53,439 nucleotides of DNA from positions 1 to 53,439 of the forward strand of contig JADZEM010000194.1 in assembly GCA_020850535.1 (NCBI GenBank), given 5' to 3'. Made by a program: the position numbers and the translations under genes. The DNA is from Chloroflexota bacterium. GTDB lineage: Bacteria; Chloroflexota; UBA6077; JACCZL01. Shown piece by piece: positions 13,564 to 27,483 of this stretch. The notes beneath the pieces are model-generated. The model ran no database searches and was not told the DNA's origin. It was given only the letters and a program-made list of their open reading frames with translations. Each line of letters starts with the position of its first letter. The stretch's first letter is position 1.

Positions 13564-16407
13564 ATGAAGGGGTGGAAACAGGTGGCCCACGACGAGCATG
13601 TGCCCTCCGCGTTCGTATCAACGTTCCGGCAGCGTTTCGCACCACTTTTCGGCCGCAAGATCGGGCGGCAGCGCGCCGAGCAGTATCTCGGCGGCCTGCT
13701 GAACGGCAAGGCTGAGCGCCGGAATGTGACCAGCCTGGCCGACACCGTCGATGGCGCGAGCGCCCGCGCGCTCGGCTGGCTGCTCAACAAGTCGCCCTGG
13801 CCGACGCGCCCCGTCGTCGACGCGCTGCAGTTGTACGTCGGCGAGACGTTTGGCACGCCGGACGGCCTCTACACGCTGAACATCGACAACTTCGTGAAGC
13901 GTGGCGACAACGCCGTGGGCGTCGAGAAGCAGTTCGTCCACCACCTCGGACGCACCTCGAACTCGCAGATCGGCGTCTTCCTGGCCTACGGCTCGCTGAC
14001 CTCCAGCGCCCTGGTGGACGCGGCGATCTACATGCCGCACAGCTGGATTGACGACGCCGACCGCCGCGAGAAGGCCGGCGTGCCGGCCAGCCTGGAGTAC
14101 AAGTCTCGCAGCACGCTCGCCATCGAGCTGCTGCGCGAGGCGCGCCAGCTCGGCCACCTGCCGGGCCAGTGGGTCACCTCCTGGCATGGCGAGGGCTTCG
14201 AGGAGGATCTCCGCCCCCGCCTCGACGCCGATGGCTGGCGGTATCTGCTCCCGGTCCCGGCTGCCGCCACGTTCCTGGACGCCCCCAACGCCGCCGAGCC
14301 GCGCCCGTACACGACGCTGCTCGCGGGCCAGCCCCGCAGCCCGCTCCAGCTCTGCCGCGTCTGGCTGCCTGCCGACGTGGCCCGTGCCGACGTGGCCCGT
14401 GCCGACGTGGCTCACGCCGATGCGGCCCGTGCCGTCGAGGCCCAGCGCGCGCACTGGCTGCTCGGCTGCACCGACGCGCTCAGCGGCGCCCCCGTCGCGT
14501 TCCTCTCGAACGCTCCAGAGGATGAAGCCGCCGAGATGTTCGAACGCGTCATGGCCGCGCGCTGGCAGTCCGTCCGCATGCTCGCGGAGCGCTGCGCGGG
14601 CGTCAGCCTCGACGTGTACCGCGTTCGGGGTTGGGATGGCTGGCACCGCCACGTGGCGCTCGCCCTGCTCGCGAGCGTCTTCCGGGCCTGCCTGCCGGTG
14701 CTTCCCTCCGCATCCGATCTTGAACCCGAGATCATCGCAGAACCAGACGCCGTTCCCGTTGCCCTCGCAGAGACCCCTCCGGCTCCTCCAGCAGCCCCGC
14801 TCACAGAGCACCCTGTCGACGCTCCGTCCGATGCGGTCCCCGCTGTCTCGGCGCCGGTCATCCCACATGTGGAAGAGGAGATGGCCGTGTCCATCGATGA
14901 GCCTGCCTACAGCGCCGAGGAGGCGCCCGACGAAGCCCCTGTCGCCGTCCCAGACGCCATCCCAGGCGCCGCCCCTGCCGTGCCGACCGTCTACCGACTG
15001 ACCGTGGACATCAGCGAGTCTGAGTGGCGGGCCGTGCGGGCCTTCCAGGTCTACCTGGTGGCCGACGAGGCTGGCTCCATCCAGTCCTGCGTGCCGTCCA
15101 AGGCCGAGATCGAGCGGCAGGAAGTCGGGCAGCGGATCGACATCACCTTCCTCTCGCCCCGCAGCCGCGACGAGCTTCTCCTGGCGCTCGACGAGGTGCC
15201 AGAGGTCAGAGTGATGGAACTACAGGCCGAGGGTGAGACTGCCCCGGCGGCCGAGGCCGAGGCTGCTCCCGCGCCGGCGGCGGCTGCACCGAGTGGCCCC
15301 ATCCGCTACGTGCTCGACGTCAACATCGAGGAGACGGACTGGCGGGCCGTGCGAGCCTTCCAGGTCTGGCTGGTGGCCGACGAGGCTGGCTCCATCCAGT
15401 CCTGCGTGCCGTCCAAGGCCGAGATCGAGCGGCAGGAAGTCGGCCACCAGATACACGTCGAGTTCGACTCGCCGCGCAGCGTCGAGCAGATCATGGCGTC
15501 CCTCCGCGAGGTACCTGAGATCTCGGTGCTCTCGCTGGTGACCGCTGGTGCAGAGCTGCCGGTCGAGTTGGTGGCGGCCATCGCCTCGGTGGAGCAGGCC
15601 GACGCCGACGAGCACCTGGACCTGAGCGATGCCGACGACATGCTGGCGGCGCTGGAAGCCGAGCTGAGCGAGCGCACCACCGCCCGCGAGGCCGGCCTGA
15701 TGCCAGCGTTCGAGGGGCCGATTGAAGTCGTCGGGAACGCCGTCATCGAGGCAAGCATCATCCTCGAAGAGTCGCGCGAGCTGGTGGTGGCCGGCACGAA
15801 TGGCGCCAACGGCCACACCAACGGCGCTGGCGGCGGGTCTGCCACGCTGACCGCGCCGATAGAGCCGCCCGTCGCCCCGGCCAACGAGGCCCCGGCCCGC
15901 GCGGCGGCTGCCGCGCAGCCGTCCACCGCCCCCGTCGCCGAGAAGCCGGCCGAGCCGAAGGAAGCGGCCGAGCGGGCGCGCCCCGAGGAAGAGCAGATGG
16001 TGGTGCTGGACGTCGGCAACGAGTCCTACGGCATCCCCGTCAAGCAGGTCCGCGAGATCATCCGCGTCCCGCCGATCACCCGCGTGCCGAACGGCCCGGG
16101 CTTCCTCGAAGGCGTCATCAACCTGCGCGGCCAGGTGATCCCGGTCATGGATCTCCGCAAGCACCTCGGCATCGAGGGCGGTGGGGAGACGCGCCGCAGC
16201 CGGGTCGTCGTCTCCGAGCTGGGGCGGCACACCGTCGGCCTGATGGTGGACGCGGTCTCCGAGGTCGTGATGATCTCCACGACGGACATCGAGCCGCCGC
16301 CAGCGATCATCGCCGGCGCGAACGACGGCCAGATCCGTGGCGTCGCGCGGCTGGGCGACCGGCTGGTGTTGTTCCTGGACCCCGAGCGGGTGCTGCCGAA
16401 CAGCTGA
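13564..16407 (+). CDS. Fusion: inactive IS701/DDE_5-like transposase domain + two CheA-P2-like domains + CheW domain
   Basis: A 947-residue protein in one uninterrupted frame. Residues 1 to about 375 follow the IS701-type DDE_5 transposase fold from RFAPLFGRKIGRQRAEQYL through VGVEKQFVHHLGR, QIGVFLAYGS, MPHSWIDD, REKAGVP to WDGWHRHVALALL. The first catalytic Asp is kept (D108 in NIDNFV), but the second is lost (WVTSWHGEG at 203-211 where active enzymes read like WVTADEVYG) and the third acidic residue is replaced (CAGVSLD, G346). A Pro/Ala/Glu linker follows, with four ADVAR-type repeats at 14371-14430. Residues about 477-555 and 580-660 are two near-identical copies of a domain resembling the CheA P2 CheY-binding domain. 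Residues about 810-947 are CheW. Likely a domesticated transposase turned into a signalling scaffold. No other che gene is in the window. Confidence 0.82.
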   Translation: MKGWKQVAHDEHVPSAFVSTFRQRFAPLFGRKIGRQRAEQYLGGLLNGKAERRNVTSLADTVDGASARALGWLLNKSPWPTRPVVDALQLYVGETFGTPDGLYTLNIDNFVKRGDNAVGVEKQFVHHLGRTSNSQIGVFLAYGSLTSSALVDAAIYMPHSWIDDADRREKAGVPASLEYKSRSTLAIELLREARQLGHLPGQWVTSWHGEGFEEDLRPRLDADGWRYLLPVPAAATFLDAPNAAEPRPYTTLLAGQPRSPLQLCRVWLPADVARADVARADVAHADAARAVEAQRAHWLLGCTDALSGAPVAFLSNAPEDEAAEMFERVMAARWQSVRMLAERCAGVSLDVYRVRGWDGWHRHVALALLASVFRACLPVLPSASDLEPEIIAEPDAVPVALAETPPAPPAAPLTEHPVDAPSDAVPAVSAPVIPHVEEEMAVSIDEPAYSAEEAPDEAPVAVPDAIPGAAPAVPTVYRLTVDISESEWRAVRAFQVYLVADEAGSIQSCVPSKAEIERQEVGQRIDITFLSPRSRDELLLALDEVPEVRVMELQAEGETAPAAEAEAAPAPAAAAPSGPIRYVLDVNIEETDWRAVRAFQVWLVADEAGSIQSCVPSKAEIERQEVGHQIHVEFDSPRSVEQIMASLREVPEISVLSLVTAGAELPVELVAAIASVEQADADEHLDLSDADDMLAALEAELSERTTAREAGLMPAFEGPIEVVGNAVIEASIILEESRELVVAGTNGANGHTNGAGGGSATLTAPIEPPVAPANEAPARAAAAAQPSTAPVAEKPAEPKEAAERARPEEEQMVVLDVGNESYGIPVKQVREIIRVPPITRVPNGPGFLEGVINLRGQVIPVMDLRKHLGIEGGGETRRSRVVVSELGRHTVGLMVDAVSEVVMISTTDIEPPPAIIAGANDGQIRGVARLGDRLVLFLDPERVLPNS
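14371..14430 (+). repeat. Four tandem 15-bp units inside the transposase-like domain
   Basis: Unit GCCGACGTGGCCCGT encodes ADVAR; copies at 14371, 14386, 14401 and 14416, the last two with three or four changes. The reading frame is preserved. It inserts an Ala/Asp-rich hydrophilic loop in the domain. Confidence 0.85.
15025..15443 (+). repeat. Two 104-bp near-identical direct repeats within the fusion gene
   Basis: Bases 15025-15128 and 15340-15443 differ at only three positions, 315 bases (105 codons) apart. The neighbouring sequence of the two P2-like domains is far more diverged, which points to a recent partial duplication or to gene conversion limited to this block. Confidence 0.85.
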
Positions 16408-16427: not shown

Positions 16428-16458
16428 GGAGGCCCTCACCCCCGGGGTGAGGGCCTCC
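16428..16458. terminator. Bidirectional terminator palindrome
   Basis: GGAGGCCCTCACCCC (16428-16442) and its perfect complement (16444-16458) flank one base. It lies between the convergent fusion gene and binding-protein gene. The sequence is the same core as the ends of the repeat at 126-244, so a dispersed palindrome serves here as terminator. Confidence 0.75.
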
Positions 16459-22027: not shown

Positions 22028-24673
22028 TCAACCTTGCCGGACGATCGCGTACGGCGCCGTGGCCAGGGAGTCGTCGAGGCCCGGGTAGCGCCAGGCTCGG
22101 CCGTCCGCCGCGTGCAGCTCGAACAGATAGAGCAGCGAGTACGGGGCGTCTGTGTACGCACCCGGGATCGTGGCGCGGAGCGTCGAACCGTCTGCCTCCA
22201 GGCCGACCGCCTCCCAGCTTTCGGCCTGATTCAGGTGGCGGTAGTGCAGCCGCCCCGTCAGCGGCGAGCCGTCCGCCGTCCGGGCCGTCAACGCCACCGC
22301 GACGGCCGCGCCGCGCCGGAATGAGGACGGCGGCGTATGGGCATAGGTCACGGCGGGCGGCAGCGGATCGAGCGTCGCCAGCGGCCGGTGTACAGCGCTG
22401 CCGTCGCTCGCCGGGGTCGCGGCAAGCTCGGCCTCCATGTCGCCCAGGTCGTCCTCTATCGCCTGGATCCGGTCAGCCCACTGGCCGCGCAGCCAGGCCT
22501 CGCCGCCGACGGTGATATCGTCGCGATACGCCTTGCCGTGCTCAACCACGCCGGCCCAGGCATCGCGAGCCGCGCGGTACGCCTGGACGGCCTCCTCCAG
22601 GGAGTCACGGGCGCCGGTCCGCTTGAAGAGGGCGTACCCGACGCCCGCCCGCAGCTTGTCGGCGAAGAACTGCCCCAGGCCGGCCACGATCCGCACGTCC
22701 ACGGCCACCTGACGGAACGGGACGGTGCTCGCATCGCCGACAGCCTGCTCGGCCTGAGCGAGCGCCGCCAGGGCCGCCTCGGCGGACGCCTGGAGCCAGT
22801 CGGCCACGCGCAGCGGCGAGTACCGCCCGTCTGACCGGCCTGCCACCACCCCATCCGCGAAGTCCTCGATGCTGGAGAAGGTGACCGGGTCATGCGGGCT
22901 GACGGTCCCGAACCGACGTGGGAACACCGTGTCGCGGTACGGATGCGGCCGGTCCCGTTCGAGGATCGGCATGTTGGTGTAGACCTCGGGCCAGAAGCGG
23001 TTGTTGGCGGCCGAGGGGTGGTGCGCCGTGGTGATCAGCGGCAGGATACGGCTCGCCTGGGCCAGCGCCGTCTCGACCGCCCCCGCTGCCGCCCCGAACT
23101 CGGCCCGCAACTGCCGCTGCCACGTCTCGGCGTCGGCGTCCGGGTTGTAGAGCAGCCGCCCGAACAGCCGGAACGTGTAGGTGAACTTCTCCCAGTCGCG
23201 CTCGGGCTTCAAGCGCTCGTCGGCGTAGGCGTTGCGCCCGCCCGGCAGCCCGGAGCCGCGTCGGCCCTTGAAGGAGAGCGGCTCCATCAGCTCGACGCCC
23301 AGCGAGCCGCCGATGGTCCCGTGCCGGCCGTAGCCCGCCGCGAAGGCCGGGCTGCCCCAGAGCAGGATGCGCTGCGTGCCCGGCCAGATGCGGTAGTAGA
23401 CCCCGAACGTCCGCCCTTCCTCCAGGAAGTCGGCGTAGCCGTAGCGAGTGTAGCTCAGGTCGAAGTGGCTGCGGTTCATCAGCCCCTGCACGAAGTGATC
23501 GCCGTCAAGCCGACGGGGGGCACTCTCGGTCGGGCGGATCGCCGCCTGGTGACCGGGCAAACCCAGGTGCTCGGCGGTGTACTTCGGCGAGACGTTGATC
23601 TGCAGGCCCGTCTCCAGGCCCACATCGATCATCTCGCGGTCAACGCCTTTCGGGTGCAGGTCAAGCTCGACCGGCCGCCCGCACGCCACGATCCCCTTGA
23701 AGACGATCCGCCAGAAGTCGTAGTTGCCCTCGGGGACGCCGCTCTCGCCGTGGACGCGCAGGGTCACCCCTGCGATGCCGGGGCACGCTTCGAGGATACG
23801 GCGCAGCGCATCGCGGCAGTAGGTGGCGTGGTTGGCCTCAGACAGCCCCTCGGTGATGTAGCTGGCGTTCGGGCTCTCGGTCCACTGGTACTGCTGGGTC
23901 CAGATGCCAAGCTGGAAGTGCAGACCGCGTCGCGCCGCCTCGTCGCTGATGAAGCGGAGGGTGTCGAGATTCTTCGCGCGCTCCTCGTCGGGGAGGGGTG
24001 TGCCGTCCGATGTCCTGATGGCTCGAACATTTTCGCCAGGCACGTCGATCAGGAACGGGTACGGGAACAGCAGGTAGGCGTCCAGGACGTTCCGCAGGAA
24101 ATCGTGCCCGATGCCGAACGCGAGGTGGATCCGGTTGAACCGCTGCGTCGCGAGCATCGTCAGGTAGCGTTCCCAGCCCTCGCGGTCGTGGAACCAGGGA
24201 AGGTCCTCCACGTCGCTGACCTGCAGCTTCGTGACGCCACGGATCGGGTTGGCTGGCCGCTCCACGATGGCTGACGGTGCAGACAGGGCGGCCCCCACGT
24301 CTGCACCGTTCCGAAGTCGGTCGGCAAGCTCCAGCACGGCGTAGACCACGCCGCGCGGGTCCGCCCCGGCCGCCAGCAGGACTGTTCGCCCCTCCAGCGT
24401 GCCTGAGACCAGCGCCAGCGATTCGGCTTCGGTCGGCAAGGTGACGCCGCCCGCCCGGGCCACCGTCTGCGCTGCCGCCGACCCCGTGCCAGCCACCACC
24501 ACGACGGCATCTGCGTCGGCGGTCTCCCTGACGCTGCCCACGGCTCGGACGGTCGCCCCGCGCATCTCAAGCGCCGACTGTAGCTCCGAGACGGCCCATC
24601 CGCCCGGCCCCGCCGAGGCCACCGCATCTGACGGATCGCGCACTACCGCAACCGCGATCGCTCCATCGCTCAT
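22028..24673 (-). CDS. Large glycoside-hydrolase-like protein with GH20/GH67-type N-terminal domain
   Basis: An 881-residue protein without a signal peptide. Residues about 1-135 form an alternating beta/alpha domain with LLAAGADPRGVVYAVLELADRL, the pattern of the non-catalytic N-terminal domain before GH20 hexosaminidase and GH67 glucuronidase barrels. Residues about 145-600 look like a TIM barrel: RFNRIHLAFG, LGIWTQQYQWTES, LRVHGESGVPEGNYDFW and a YYRIWPGTQRILLWG stretch. The catalytic acids are not certain; Glu in HGESG is a candidate. The C-terminal part is helical, then a short beta-rich domain. A cytoplasmic enzyme acting on imported oligosaccharides would fit the importers nearby. Exact family not recognised. 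Confidence 0.65.
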   Translation of the reverse strand: MSDGAIAVAVVRDPSDAVASAGPGGWAVSELQSALEMRGATVRAVGSVRETADADAVVVVAGTGSAAAQTVARAGGVTLPTEAESLALVSGTLEGRTVLLAAGADPRGVVYAVLELADRLRNGADVGAALSAPSAIVERPANPIRGVTKLQVSDVEDLPWFHDREGWERYLTMLATQRFNRIHLAFGIGHDFLRNVLDAYLLFPYPFLIDVPGENVRAIRTSDGTPLPDEERAKNLDTLRFISDEAARRGLHFQLGIWTQQYQWTESPNASYITEGLSEANHATYCRDALRRILEACPGIAGVTLRVHGESGVPEGNYDFWRIVFKGIVACGRPVELDLHPKGVDREMIDVGLETGLQINVSPKYTAEHLGLPGHQAAIRPTESAPRRLDGDHFVQGLMNRSHFDLSYTRYGYADFLEEGRTFGVYYRIWPGTQRILLWGSPAFAAGYGRHGTIGGSLGVELMEPLSFKGRRGSGLPGGRNAYADERLKPERDWEKFTYTFRLFGRLLYNPDADAETWQRQLRAEFGAAAGAVETALAQASRILPLITTAHHPSAANNRFWPEVYTNMPILERDRPHPYRDTVFPRRFGTVSPHDPVTFSSIEDFADGVVAGRSDGRYSPLRVADWLQASAEAALAALAQAEQAVGDASTVPFRQVAVDVRIVAGLGQFFADKLRAGVGYALFKRTGARDSLEEAVQAYRAARDAWAGVVEHGKAYRDDITVGGEAWLRGQWADRIQAIEDDLGDMEAELAATPASDGSAVHRPLATLDPLPPAVTYAHTPPSSFRRGAAVAVALTARTADGSPLTGRLHYRHLNQAESWEAVGLEADGSTLRATIPGAYTDAPYSLLYLFELHAADGRAWRYPGLDDSLATAPYAIVRQG

Positions 24674-24983: not shown

Positions 24984-26297
24984 CTACGCCATCGGCGGCC
25001 GCGCGGGGCGCTGCCCGCCGGCGCCCATCGTGTGGGGCGGCCGGCCGGTCACACCGCCTGGCACCTCGCGCACGAAGCGCGGCTGCGGCAGCGGGATCGA
25101 CACCTCGGGCAGCCCGCCGACGGCCGGGTCGTACAGACAGGTCTCGTCCTCGGCCAGGTAGTCGCCGGTCAGGCCGTAGGCCCGCGCGCGACTCCCGCCG
25201 CAGACGCGCCGGTAGTCACACGCGCCGCAGCGTCCCTTCAGCAGCTCTGGCGTGCGCAGCTCGCGGAACAACGGCGACTCGCGATAGATCTCCACCAGCG
25301 AGTGCTCGCGGACGTTGCCCGCCGAGACCTGGAGGAAGCCGCTCGGGTAGACCTCCCCGCGATGGGAGATGAAGGCGAACCCCTTGCCGTCGTTCACGCC
25401 CTGCTCGGCCGGCGCCTGCCCGCCCCGGAAAGCGTAGCCCGCCCCCGTCAAATCCCAGCGCACGGCGCTCGACTCGCCATCGGCGGCCTCGCCGCGCGCC
25501 AGCCGCTCCCGCTGGATGACGACGCGCCGGTAGTGCTGGGCCGCCGTCGTCCGCACCGCGAACGGCGCGCGCTGCGAGACGGCGTGCAGCCACTGGAGAA
25601 CGCCCTCGTGCTCGGCGGCGTCCAGCATGTCAGACACCTGCCCCCGGCCCGTTGGGACCAGGAAGAAGACGCTCCACATCCGCACGCCCAGCCGCTCGAC
25701 GATCTCCGCGACGGCCGGCAAGTCCTGCCAGTTGCGGCGCGTGACCGTCGTGCCGACCTGGATCGGCAGGTTCAGACGCTGGGCGTAGGCCAGGATCTCC
25801 AGCGTGCGGTCGAAGGAGCCGCCGACGCCCCGGAAGGCATCGTGGGTCTCGGCCGAGGAGCCGTCCAGGCTCAGGTGGACCATCGAGAGGCCCAACGCCT
25901 GGAGCCGCTCCAGCCGCTCGTGGGTGACCAGTGACGTGGCGCTCGGCGAGAGGCCGACGCGGAGACCGCGCCCCACGGCGTACTTCACCAGCTCTTCCAC
26001 GTCACGCCGCATCAGCGGATCGCCGCCCGTCACGATCAGGATCGGTCGCCCGATCTCCACCAGCGAGTCGATCAGGCGGAAGCCCTCGTCGGTGGTCAGC
26101 TCACGCGGATCGCGGCGCGGGATGGCCTCGGCCCGGCAGTGGATGCAGGCCAGCGCGCAGGCCCGGGTGATCTCCCAGGCGACCGTGAACGGGGTCTGGT
26201 CGAAGTCCACGGCGAAGTAGCTGGGCTTGGCGGTGGGGATCGGCGGCGCGGCGGTCTCAGCCGGGGCGCTGGTCGGGGCGGAGGGTCGGTCAGGCAT
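24984..26297 (-). CDS. Radical SAM/SPASM domain protein (haem-biosynthesis-like or TIGR04053-like)
   Basis: A 437-residue enzyme. The radical SAM cluster motif is CALACIHC (CxxxCxxC) near residue 48, followed by VTGGDPLMR (the GGE-type motif reads GGD) and HLSLDGSSAETHDAFRG. The C-terminal SPASM-like part has CGACDYRRVCGGSRARAYG and a later Cys, giving auxiliary cluster ligands. A FDQTPFTVAWEITRACALACIHC-type opening (shown here as two parts of one motif) is typical of the NirJ/AhbC/AhbD-related group and of TIGR04053. It overlaps the upstream AhbD-like gene by eight bases. Probably a partner in haem or other cofactor maturation. Confidence 0.8.
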   Translation of the reverse strand: MPDRPSAPTSAPAETAAPPIPTAKPSYFAVDFDQTPFTVAWEITRACALACIHCRAEAIPRRDPRELTTDEGFRLIDSLVEIGRPILIVTGGDPLMRRDVEELVKYAVGRGLRVGLSPSATSLVTHERLERLQALGLSMVHLSLDGSSAETHDAFRGVGGSFDRTLEILAYAQRLNLPIQVGTTVTRRNWQDLPAVAEIVERLGVRMWSVFFLVPTGRGQVSDMLDAAEHEGVLQWLHAVSQRAPFAVRTTAAQHYRRVVIQRERLARGEAADGESSAVRWDLTGAGYAFRGGQAPAEQGVNDGKGFAFISHRGEVYPSGFLQVSAGNVREHSLVEIYRESPLFRELRTPELLKGRCGACDYRRVCGGSRARAYGLTGDYLAEDETCLYDPAVGGLPEVSIPLPQPRFVREVPGGVTGRPPHTMGAGGQRPARPPMA

Positions 26298-27483
26298 GGA
26301 CGGCCTCCCGCTGCATCACTTCGGCATCCGTCAAATAGCAGCCCGGGTCGTCGGCCCAGGGGTCGCCGGTCAGCCCCTCGGCGCGTGCGCGGAAGTTCCC
26401 GTTGCAGATGTCCAGGAACCGGCAGCTGCCGCAGCGACCCTGGAGCTTCTCGCGCCGATTCCGCATCGCCTGGAGGAACGGCACGTCCTCGCCAGACCAG
26501 ATCTCGCTGAACGGGCGCTGGCGGACGTTGCCAAGCTGCTGCTTCCACCAGAACTGATCCGGGTGGACGTTGCCGAGGTTGTCTACATGCGCGAGCCTGG
26601 CACCCGAGCTGTTGCCGCCGTTGCGGCGCAGCAGCGCGAGCACCTCGGCCGCCCGCTCGGGGCCATCCTCGCGGAGCACCTTCAGGTAGAGCAGAACGCC
26701 GTCCGCATGGTTGTCTACCGTCAGCAGCTCCTTCTCCAGCCCGCGCCGGTGGAAGTCCTGGGCCTTCGCGAAGATCCGCTCGACGGCGTCGCGGGCCTCC
26801 TCGGGCGAGAGCAGGTCGCCGGCGATCTGCCGCCCGCGCCCGCTCGGCACGAGGTGGTAGAAGCAGACGCGGTTGATCCGCTCCTGCTCGACCAGCGCGA
26901 AGATGTTGTCCAGGTCGCGGACGGTGTGGCGGGTGAGCGTCAGCCGCAGTCCGACCCGCTGGCCGACGGCCACGCAGTTGCGGATGCCGCCGAGCGCCGC
27001 CTCGAACGCGCCATCCTGCCCCCGGAAGTAGTCGTGGCGCGCACCGATGCCGTCCAGGCTGATGCCGACGTACCCGAACCCGACGTCCTTGATCCGCTGG
27101 GCCACCTCGCGGGTGATGCGCGTGCCGTTGGTCGAGAGGGTGGTGCGAATGCCCTGCTCGTGCGCGAACGCCGCCAGCTCGAAGATGTCCGGGCGGATCA
27201 GCGGCTCGCCGCCGGAGAGCAGCAGCACCGGCACCCCGAACCGCCCGAGGTCCGCGATGAACGTCTGCGCCTCCTCGGTCGTCAGCTCGCCCTTGAAGGG
27301 ACGGTCGGCGGCAGCGGCATAGCAGTGCAGGCAGTCGAGGTTGCAGCGGCGGGTGGTCGTCCAGACCACCACCGGACGGGGGATGCCGTCCTCGAAGCGT
27401 CGATGCGTGGGGCCATAGCGCAGGCCATCGGTTTCGGTTGTCGTGCCACAGAGCAGCCGCGTTACACCAAGCACGAGGAGCAC
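26290..27483 (-). CDS. Radical SAM/SPASM enzyme, AhbD/NirJ-like (haem biosynthesis)
   Basis: A 397-residue enzyme very close in pattern to AhbD (Fe-coproporphyrin III decarboxylase) and NirJ (haem d1 synthesis): VVVWTTTRRCNLDCLHCYA with the CxxxCxxC cluster, LLSGGEPLIRPD, VGISLDGIG, VCFYHLVPSGRGR, LTVDNHADG, NGGNSSGA, PDQFWW, and SPASM ligands CGSCRFLDICNGNFRARAE. AhbD makes protohaem; NirJ acts on didecarboxysirohaem, and the sequence does not separate them surely. Start GTG 27483 is tentative; GTG 27474 is also possible. Located directly upstream (divergent) of the cupin and the molybdoenzyme genes, which need haem b. Confidence 0.85.
   Translation of the reverse strand: MLLVLGVTRLLCGTTTETDGLRYGPTHRRFEDGIPRPVVVWTTTRRCNLDCLHCYAAAADRPFKGELTTEEAQTFIADLGRFGVPVLLLSGGEPLIRPDIFELAAFAHEQGIRTTLSTNGTRITREVAQRIKDVGFGYVGISLDGIGARHDYFRGQDGAFEAALGGIRNCVAVGQRVGLRLTLTRHTVRDLDNIFALVEQERINRVCFYHLVPSGRGRQIAGDLLSPEEARDAVERIFAKAQDFHRRGLEKELLTVDNHADGVLLYLKVLREDGPERAAEVLALLRRNGGNSSGARLAHVDNLGNVHPDQFWWKQQLGNVRQRPFSEIWSGEDVPFLQAMRNRREKLQGRCGSCRFLDICNGNFRARAEGLTGDPWADDPGCYLTDAEVMQREAVHA

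Follow-up and report, generated by a model that had tools for sequence, protein, structure and literature searches.

A CheW-type chemotaxis protein joined to an apparently inactive IS701 transposase domain in a draft Chloroflexota genome

The fusion gene and its domains

The window, the whole stretch of 53,439 nucleotides analyzed here, comes from one draft metagenome-assembled genome (MAG) of a flagellated Chloroflexota bacterium. It carries a gene whose 947-amino-acid product is composed of an IS701/DDE_5 transposase domain, a linker, two P2 domains, a second linker, and a CheW domain (Table 1). A first, sequence-only reading of this DNA had described a single uninterrupted 947-codon gene with the order transposase-P2-P2-CheW; the open reading frame is indeed intact, and the order is borne out by Pfam and NCBIfam matches above their cut-offs. 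The Pfam scores of the three domain types are about three to six times the curated cut-offs: DDE_5 matches residues 25 to 271 (E = 2.8e-26, 93 bits, cut-off 27), P2 matches two stretches, the best being residues 476 to 554 (4.6e-21, 75 bits, cut-off 23), and CheW matches residues 811 to 944 (1.5e-39, 135 bits, cut-off 23.5). The NCBIfam equivalog for IS701 transposases, NF033540, covers residues 19 to 374 with 210.5 bits against a cut-off of 150. These domain matches are far beyond chance. An unusual composition is common to both linkers. A model of the P2-P2-CheW part folded without an alignment was poor (pLDDT 43), and the possible short helix that it places at about residues 686 to 709 of linker 2 is of low confidence.

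Table 1. Features of the fusion gene and its flank, with positions in the window
Feature	Position	Strand	Remarks
Fusion gene	13564..16407	+	947 codons, ATG to TGA, frame unbroken
IS701/DDE_5 transposase domain, predicted catalytically dead	13618..14691	+	residues 19-376; DDE_5 2.8e-26, NF033540 210 bits, Tn5-like fold Z 21
N-terminal helical region, Tn5 DNA-binding counterpart	13618..13851	+	residues 19-96; net charge +6 vs 0.4 +/- 2.9 in relatives
First catalytic acid lost, D106N	13879..13881	+	relatives with a residue there: D 89/90, N 1/90
Second catalytic acid lost, D207W	14182..14184	+	relatives: D 91/92, E 1/92
15-nt tandem repeats, VARAD-type peptide	14370..14444	+	in low-confidence insert of the transposase fold; pLDDT <50 at residues 267-286
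Third catalytic acid lost, E337V	14572..14574	+	relatives: E 90/90
Conserved lysine of R-E-K signature lost, K344C	14593..14595	+	relatives: K 88/90
Linker 1, acidic, Pro/Ala-rich	14692..14988	+	residues 377-475; 22 Pro, 22 Ala, 19 Asp+Glu, zero Lys/Arg
Possible internal start GTG, codon 442	14887..14889	+	GAGGAG upstream; consensus only
First P2 (CheY/CheB-docking) domain	14992..15234	+	residues 477-557; Pfam P2; groups with CheA P2s of the order
Second P2 domain	15307..15549	+	residues 582-662; tandem duplicate of the first
Linker 2	15553..15975	+	residues 664-804; mostly low complexity; Pro/Ala-rich, acidic
CheW domain	15994..16398	+	Pfam CheW 811-944; V829, G850, R855 kept
Perfect 15-bp inverted repeat, possible terminator	16428..16458	.	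just past stop; z -3.7; no T-run

The transposase domain

The transposase half was aligned to 92 relatives taken from genome collections. We take the third acid of the IS4-like superfamily to sit in an R-x3-E-x6-K signature, which corresponds to column 337 of the fusion. All three catalytic acids and the signature lysine are replaced (Table 1). The inactivity claimed by the sequence-only reading is thereby strengthened, and the loss of the second acid stands as claimed, with W207 in the place of an almost invariant D. That reading had also supposed that the first acid was kept and that the third was represented by G346; the former is in fact N106, and the latter belongs to column 337, where the fusion has V, whereas column 346 holds E in just 60 of the 92 relatives and is not catalytic. 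With no catalytic residue left, the transposase half is, as judged from the alignment, catalytically dead. The segment 13564-14691 is an example of a protein that passes the NF033540 cut-off without any catalytic residue.

Columns with the same residue in at least 90% of the relatives were counted as conserved. Of 57 such near-invariant columns, 35 are retained (61%), including W79, W161, W203, and W360, and the lowest share in any relative is 69%. That all four catalytic-signature residues are among those lost is non-random with respect to the conserved columns (Fisher p 0.019). The nearest relative of the transposase half has about 35% identity, and a close copy is absent from the genome, whose only other detected IS701-type gene belongs to a different subfamily and lies at a contig end. 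Inverted repeats around the fusion gene are at chance level only, and no recognizable IS ends were found there.

A PDB sequence search with the transposase half gave no match; only the fold search did. The AlphaFold2 model of this half, built from 53 sequences, has a pLDDT of 82.7 and a pTM of 0.86, and its best PDB match is the Tn5 transposase (Z 21.2 over 315 residues, rmsd 4.6; Foldseek E 4e-7), the match running from the N-terminal DNA-binding region through the C-terminal helix. Structure prediction thus places the first 375 residues in the DDE fold, and the fold-defining blocks, said in the sequence-only reading to be kept, belong to an RNase H-like DDE fold predicted at high confidence.

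DNA binding is an ancestral noncatalytic property of the DDE transposase fold. The N-terminal region of the fusion is more basic than that of most relatives (Table 1). The net charge of the entire domain (+1) is not unusual (3.8 +/- 5.6 in relatives), so that DNA binding is not predicted by overall charge. Tn5-type transposases dimerize, and Tn5 also produces an inactive inhibitor whose action relies on oligomerization. The dead transposase might accordingly be a dimerization or oligomerization module that clusters CheW/P2 units and binds no DNA. Besides this known behavior of Tn5-type proteins, the near-neutral overall charge and the presence of the Tn5 inhibitor structure (1b7e, Z 13.2) among the fold matches are in line with such a scaffold. 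However, the counterpart of the N-terminal DNA-binding region has been retained, with its raised basic charge, and we regard a pure scaffold as quite unlikely.

The P2 pair and the CheW domain

Among solved structures, CheW proteins match the CheW domain with E values down to 8e-29. Its residues V829, G850, and R855 are the counterparts of V36, G57, and R62 of Escherichia coli CheW, which we take to contact receptor and CheA. A tree of 34 CheW domains places it in one group with the two other CheW proteins of the genome and one CheW of the same order (97% SH-aLRT). The P2 pair groups with CheA P2 domains of the host's order (tree support 82%). Both parts descend from che genes of the bacterium's own order. 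Pfam matches to Hpt, H-kinase_dim, HATPase_c, or REC domains were not found in the fusion protein.

The two P2 domains arose by a tandem duplication that is visible as a 205-nt repeat with 80% identity. The central 25 residues of the copies are identical at 74 of 75 nucleotides, while the flanks have diverged (15003-15522), a pattern that points to homogenization by recent gene conversion. The overall Ka/Ks values between the copies (0.28/0.36 by NG86) are uninformative because the core has been homogenized. To judge by their family, the P2 domains may bind CheY or CheB. In relatives, P2 homologs lie in open frames of their own, mostly of CheA length, and none is joined to CheW without a kinase; nor was a P2-P2-CheW gene without transposase found in the relatives searched. 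The P2-P2-CheW arrangement itself therefore also seems unusual.

Genomic setting and expression signals

The genome measures 7.65 Mb in 227 contigs, with 96% completeness and 4.6% contamination. Besides a single CheA, it encodes about 15 receptors and, counting the fusion, three CheW domains that are not part of CheA. A simple scan detects no hydrophobic segment in two of the receptors, which are possibly cytoplasmic. The sequence-only reading had noted that no other che genes lie nearby. This holds for the contig of the fusion, on which no other match to CheW, CheA P2, or MCP was found; the same genome nevertheless has a full che/fli cluster on another contig (C13), where CheR, CheB, CheD, CheC, CheA, and CheW are encoded beside MotB, FliM, FliN, and FliO.

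The fusion gene begins 171 nt after a sugar-transferase gene. No sigma-70 promoter is recognizable for it, and the ribosome-binding site at ATG1 is weak. A start at GTG442 would yield a P2-P2-CheW product without the transposase. Elsewhere in the window, the minus strand encodes two adjacent radical SAM/SPASM proteins (24984-27483), possibly of a peptide-modifying or cofactor pathway, and an 881-codon open reading frame without any Pfam match (22028-24673).

Two unrelated genes might have been joined by the assembly, since the genome is a fragmented draft with some contamination and no second copy of the fusion was seen in any other assembly. Yet the frame is continuous through all joins, the two linkers resemble each other in their unusual composition, and the lineage of the CheW and P2 parts is the expected one. 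Furthermore, composition fits the genome, as does the tetranucleotide usage of both the gene and its contig (r 0.97-0.99 with the che cluster). An assembly artifact is therefore very improbable.

Distribution

Searches with the full protein found no second fusion in the genomes of 61 relatives, in the sets covering the order (16 genomes), the class (29), and the phylum (400), or in GTDB contigs and viral contigs. A scan of GTDB contigs with the transposase alignment yielded 547 relatives, the loci of 80 of which were kept; neither at these loci nor at those from the genome searches does any open reading frame join DDE with P2 or CheW. Among plasmids, 844 records match, and none covers 80% of the query. 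Because the only genome of the genus in these searches is that of the fusion, the age of the fusion can hardly be judged from its absence elsewhere.

Two kinds of candidates were rejected. (i) Open frames upstream of CheW in four genomes (G007, G010, G008, and G025), which resembled N-terminal extensions, read as out-of-gene high-GC translation with no recognizable domain. (ii) A protein of a same-family genome (G001, L037:10792-12420, minus strand) has three tandem CheW domains, an architecture different from that of the fusion, and its gene follows receptor genes. That three-CheW gene adjoins a gene for a receptor signaling domain without an obvious membrane part.

The sequence-only reading knew of no described protein with this arrangement, and none was found in the literature or in the genomes searched. 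A 2023 survey of CheA architectures reports duplicated P2 and multiple CheW domains and does not contain the word transposase (PMC10782961), and chemotaxis goes unmentioned in a review on the recruitment of mobile elements in prokaryotes (PMC8987985). Our literature search found no paper that combines CheW, P2 domain, domain architecture, and transposase.

Is the transposase half maintained?

The sequence-only reading had held that a missing ortholog together with neutral drift would speak for the chance insertion of an IS fragment. The first half of this holds, since an ortholog is absent from all collections searched. For the second half, the indirect signs favor maintenance: the frame is open, the GC3 of the transposase half is 0.90 (0.89-0.94 in neighboring genes, with an upstream intergenic GC of 0.68), fold residues are kept, the loss has fallen preferentially on catalytic residues, and the N-terminal region is basic. 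Pointing against it are the share of conserved columns, the lowest of all relatives (61%), the repeat expansion in the insert, and the plausible internal start at codon 442 by which the transposase could be bypassed. The 61% of retained columns could also mean decay. The label "domesticated" that the sequence-only reading gave to the transposase is, in the strict sense of maintenance by selection in a new role, a putative one.

The main null hypothesis is that an IS701 element inserted in front of a P2-P2-CheW gene, that the frames were joined, and that the transposase half is now tolerated and drifting as a passenger, while P2-P2-CheW works, possibly from codon 440-442. The single known occurrence of the fusion would fit this, as would the low share of conserved columns, the tandem repeats inside the transposase insert, and the good GAGGAG before GTG442 in combination with the weak site at ATG1. 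On the other hand, 376 codons have been kept without a stop or a frameshift, where about 7 stops would be expected if the sequence were fully randomized (an estimate from GC), GC3 is as high as stated above, and the fold blocks are kept with high model confidence. The remnant is also old, given its distance from the nearest relative and the lack of a close genomic copy, so that slow decay with an unbroken frame is unlikely, and no P2-P2-CheW gene free of the transposase was found in the relatives searched. A mere passenger is, in our judgment, unlikely.

Comparison with known systems

Residues 19 to 376 align end to end with IS701 family transposases (NF033540, DDE_5 PF13546) and share the Tn5-like fold. 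Unlike these transposases, the fusion lacks the three acids and the Lys, is joined to signaling domains, has no recognizable IS ends, and is present in one copy. Its CheW domain falls into one clade with the CheW proteins of the genome and keeps the key contact residues of CheW adaptors, although an ordinary CheW of about 150-170 amino acids stands alone, whereas here 800 residues precede the domain. With CheA (a P1-P5 kinase), the fusion shares P2 and a CheW-like domain, and duplicated P2 also occurs in some CheA proteins (PMC10782961); however, Hpt, dimerization, and ATPase domains are missing, and the CheW domain is of the CheW type and not of the CheA P5 type.

CheV, which joins CheW to a receiver and is known as an auxiliary adaptor (PMC4742279), likewise combines a CheW adaptor with a second, phosphorelay-interacting module. 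By analogy, CheV would be the functionally nearest relative of the fusion, though built differently, since the fusion has P2 docking domains and neither a receiver domain nor a phosphorylation site. It is probably an auxiliary CheW adaptor, a known kind of protein, with an unprecedented partner domain.

Two further systems are similar in principle. In Myxococcus xanthus, chemosensory arrays are assembled on the nucleoid via a DNA-binding part of FrzCD (PMC5716589), and the divergent CheW protein FrzB shapes the FrzCD nucleoid clusters (PMC6952110). The FrzCD/FrzB arrays, with chemosensory components on DNA, serve here only as a model of how the fusion might work, the DNA-binding part of FrzCD being a short basic tail on a receptor, where the fusion has a transposase fold attached to CheW. 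Animal host-transposase fusions such as SETMAR also arose by in-frame capture of a transposase domain by a host gene, but these are eukaryotic, have chromatin or transcription partners, and show no link to chemotaxis.

Proposed function and implications

We tentatively propose, as a reading with not quite an even chance of being right, that the protein is an auxiliary CheW adaptor that offers docking sites for CheY/CheB and that has kept a dead transposase as a noncatalytic, most likely DNA-binding, module. The gene product would act in the flagellar chemotaxis system of the bacterium. Its CheW domain would place it in receptor arrays instead of an ordinary CheW, and the two P2 domains would keep CheY and/or CheB beside the arrays, so that their local supply is raised or they are buffered, with no added kinase activity. 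The long acidic Pro/Ala linkers would allow the three modules to move independently. The transposase would have been retained for a noncatalytic property, most likely DNA binding; some of the arrays, or a pool of response regulator, could in this way be anchored to the nucleoid, similarly to what the basic tail of FrzCD accomplishes in Myxococcus.

The adaptor part of this proposal is well supported, and the DNA tether only plausible. The tether is the weakest step; the chief alternative is that the domain serves for oligomerization. Against the proposal as a whole, we count the position of the gene apart from the che operon, the lack of a recognizable promoter, the weak ribosome-binding site, the low share of conserved columns, the unremarkable overall charge of the transposase domain, the poor model of the P2-P2-CheW part, and the occurrence in one MAG with no ortholog found. 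The specific idea that a captured dead IS transposase became the DNA-binding arm of the adaptor, tying arrays or CheY/CheB pools to the chromosome, is doubtful.

If it is true, the physical link between the arrays or the CheY/CheB pools and the chromosome would let chemosensing act directly on nucleoid position or gene expression. Provided that the protein is produced and maintained by selection, bacteria would have in it a clear example of a transposase captured by a signaling protein, and chemosensory arrays a second possible link to DNA besides FrzCD. The gene also marks a blind spot of annotation: the N-terminal half scores above the cut-off of the IS701 equivalog, for which reason automatic pipelines are expected to name the entire chemotaxis protein "IS701 family transposase", and relatives may be hidden under that name.
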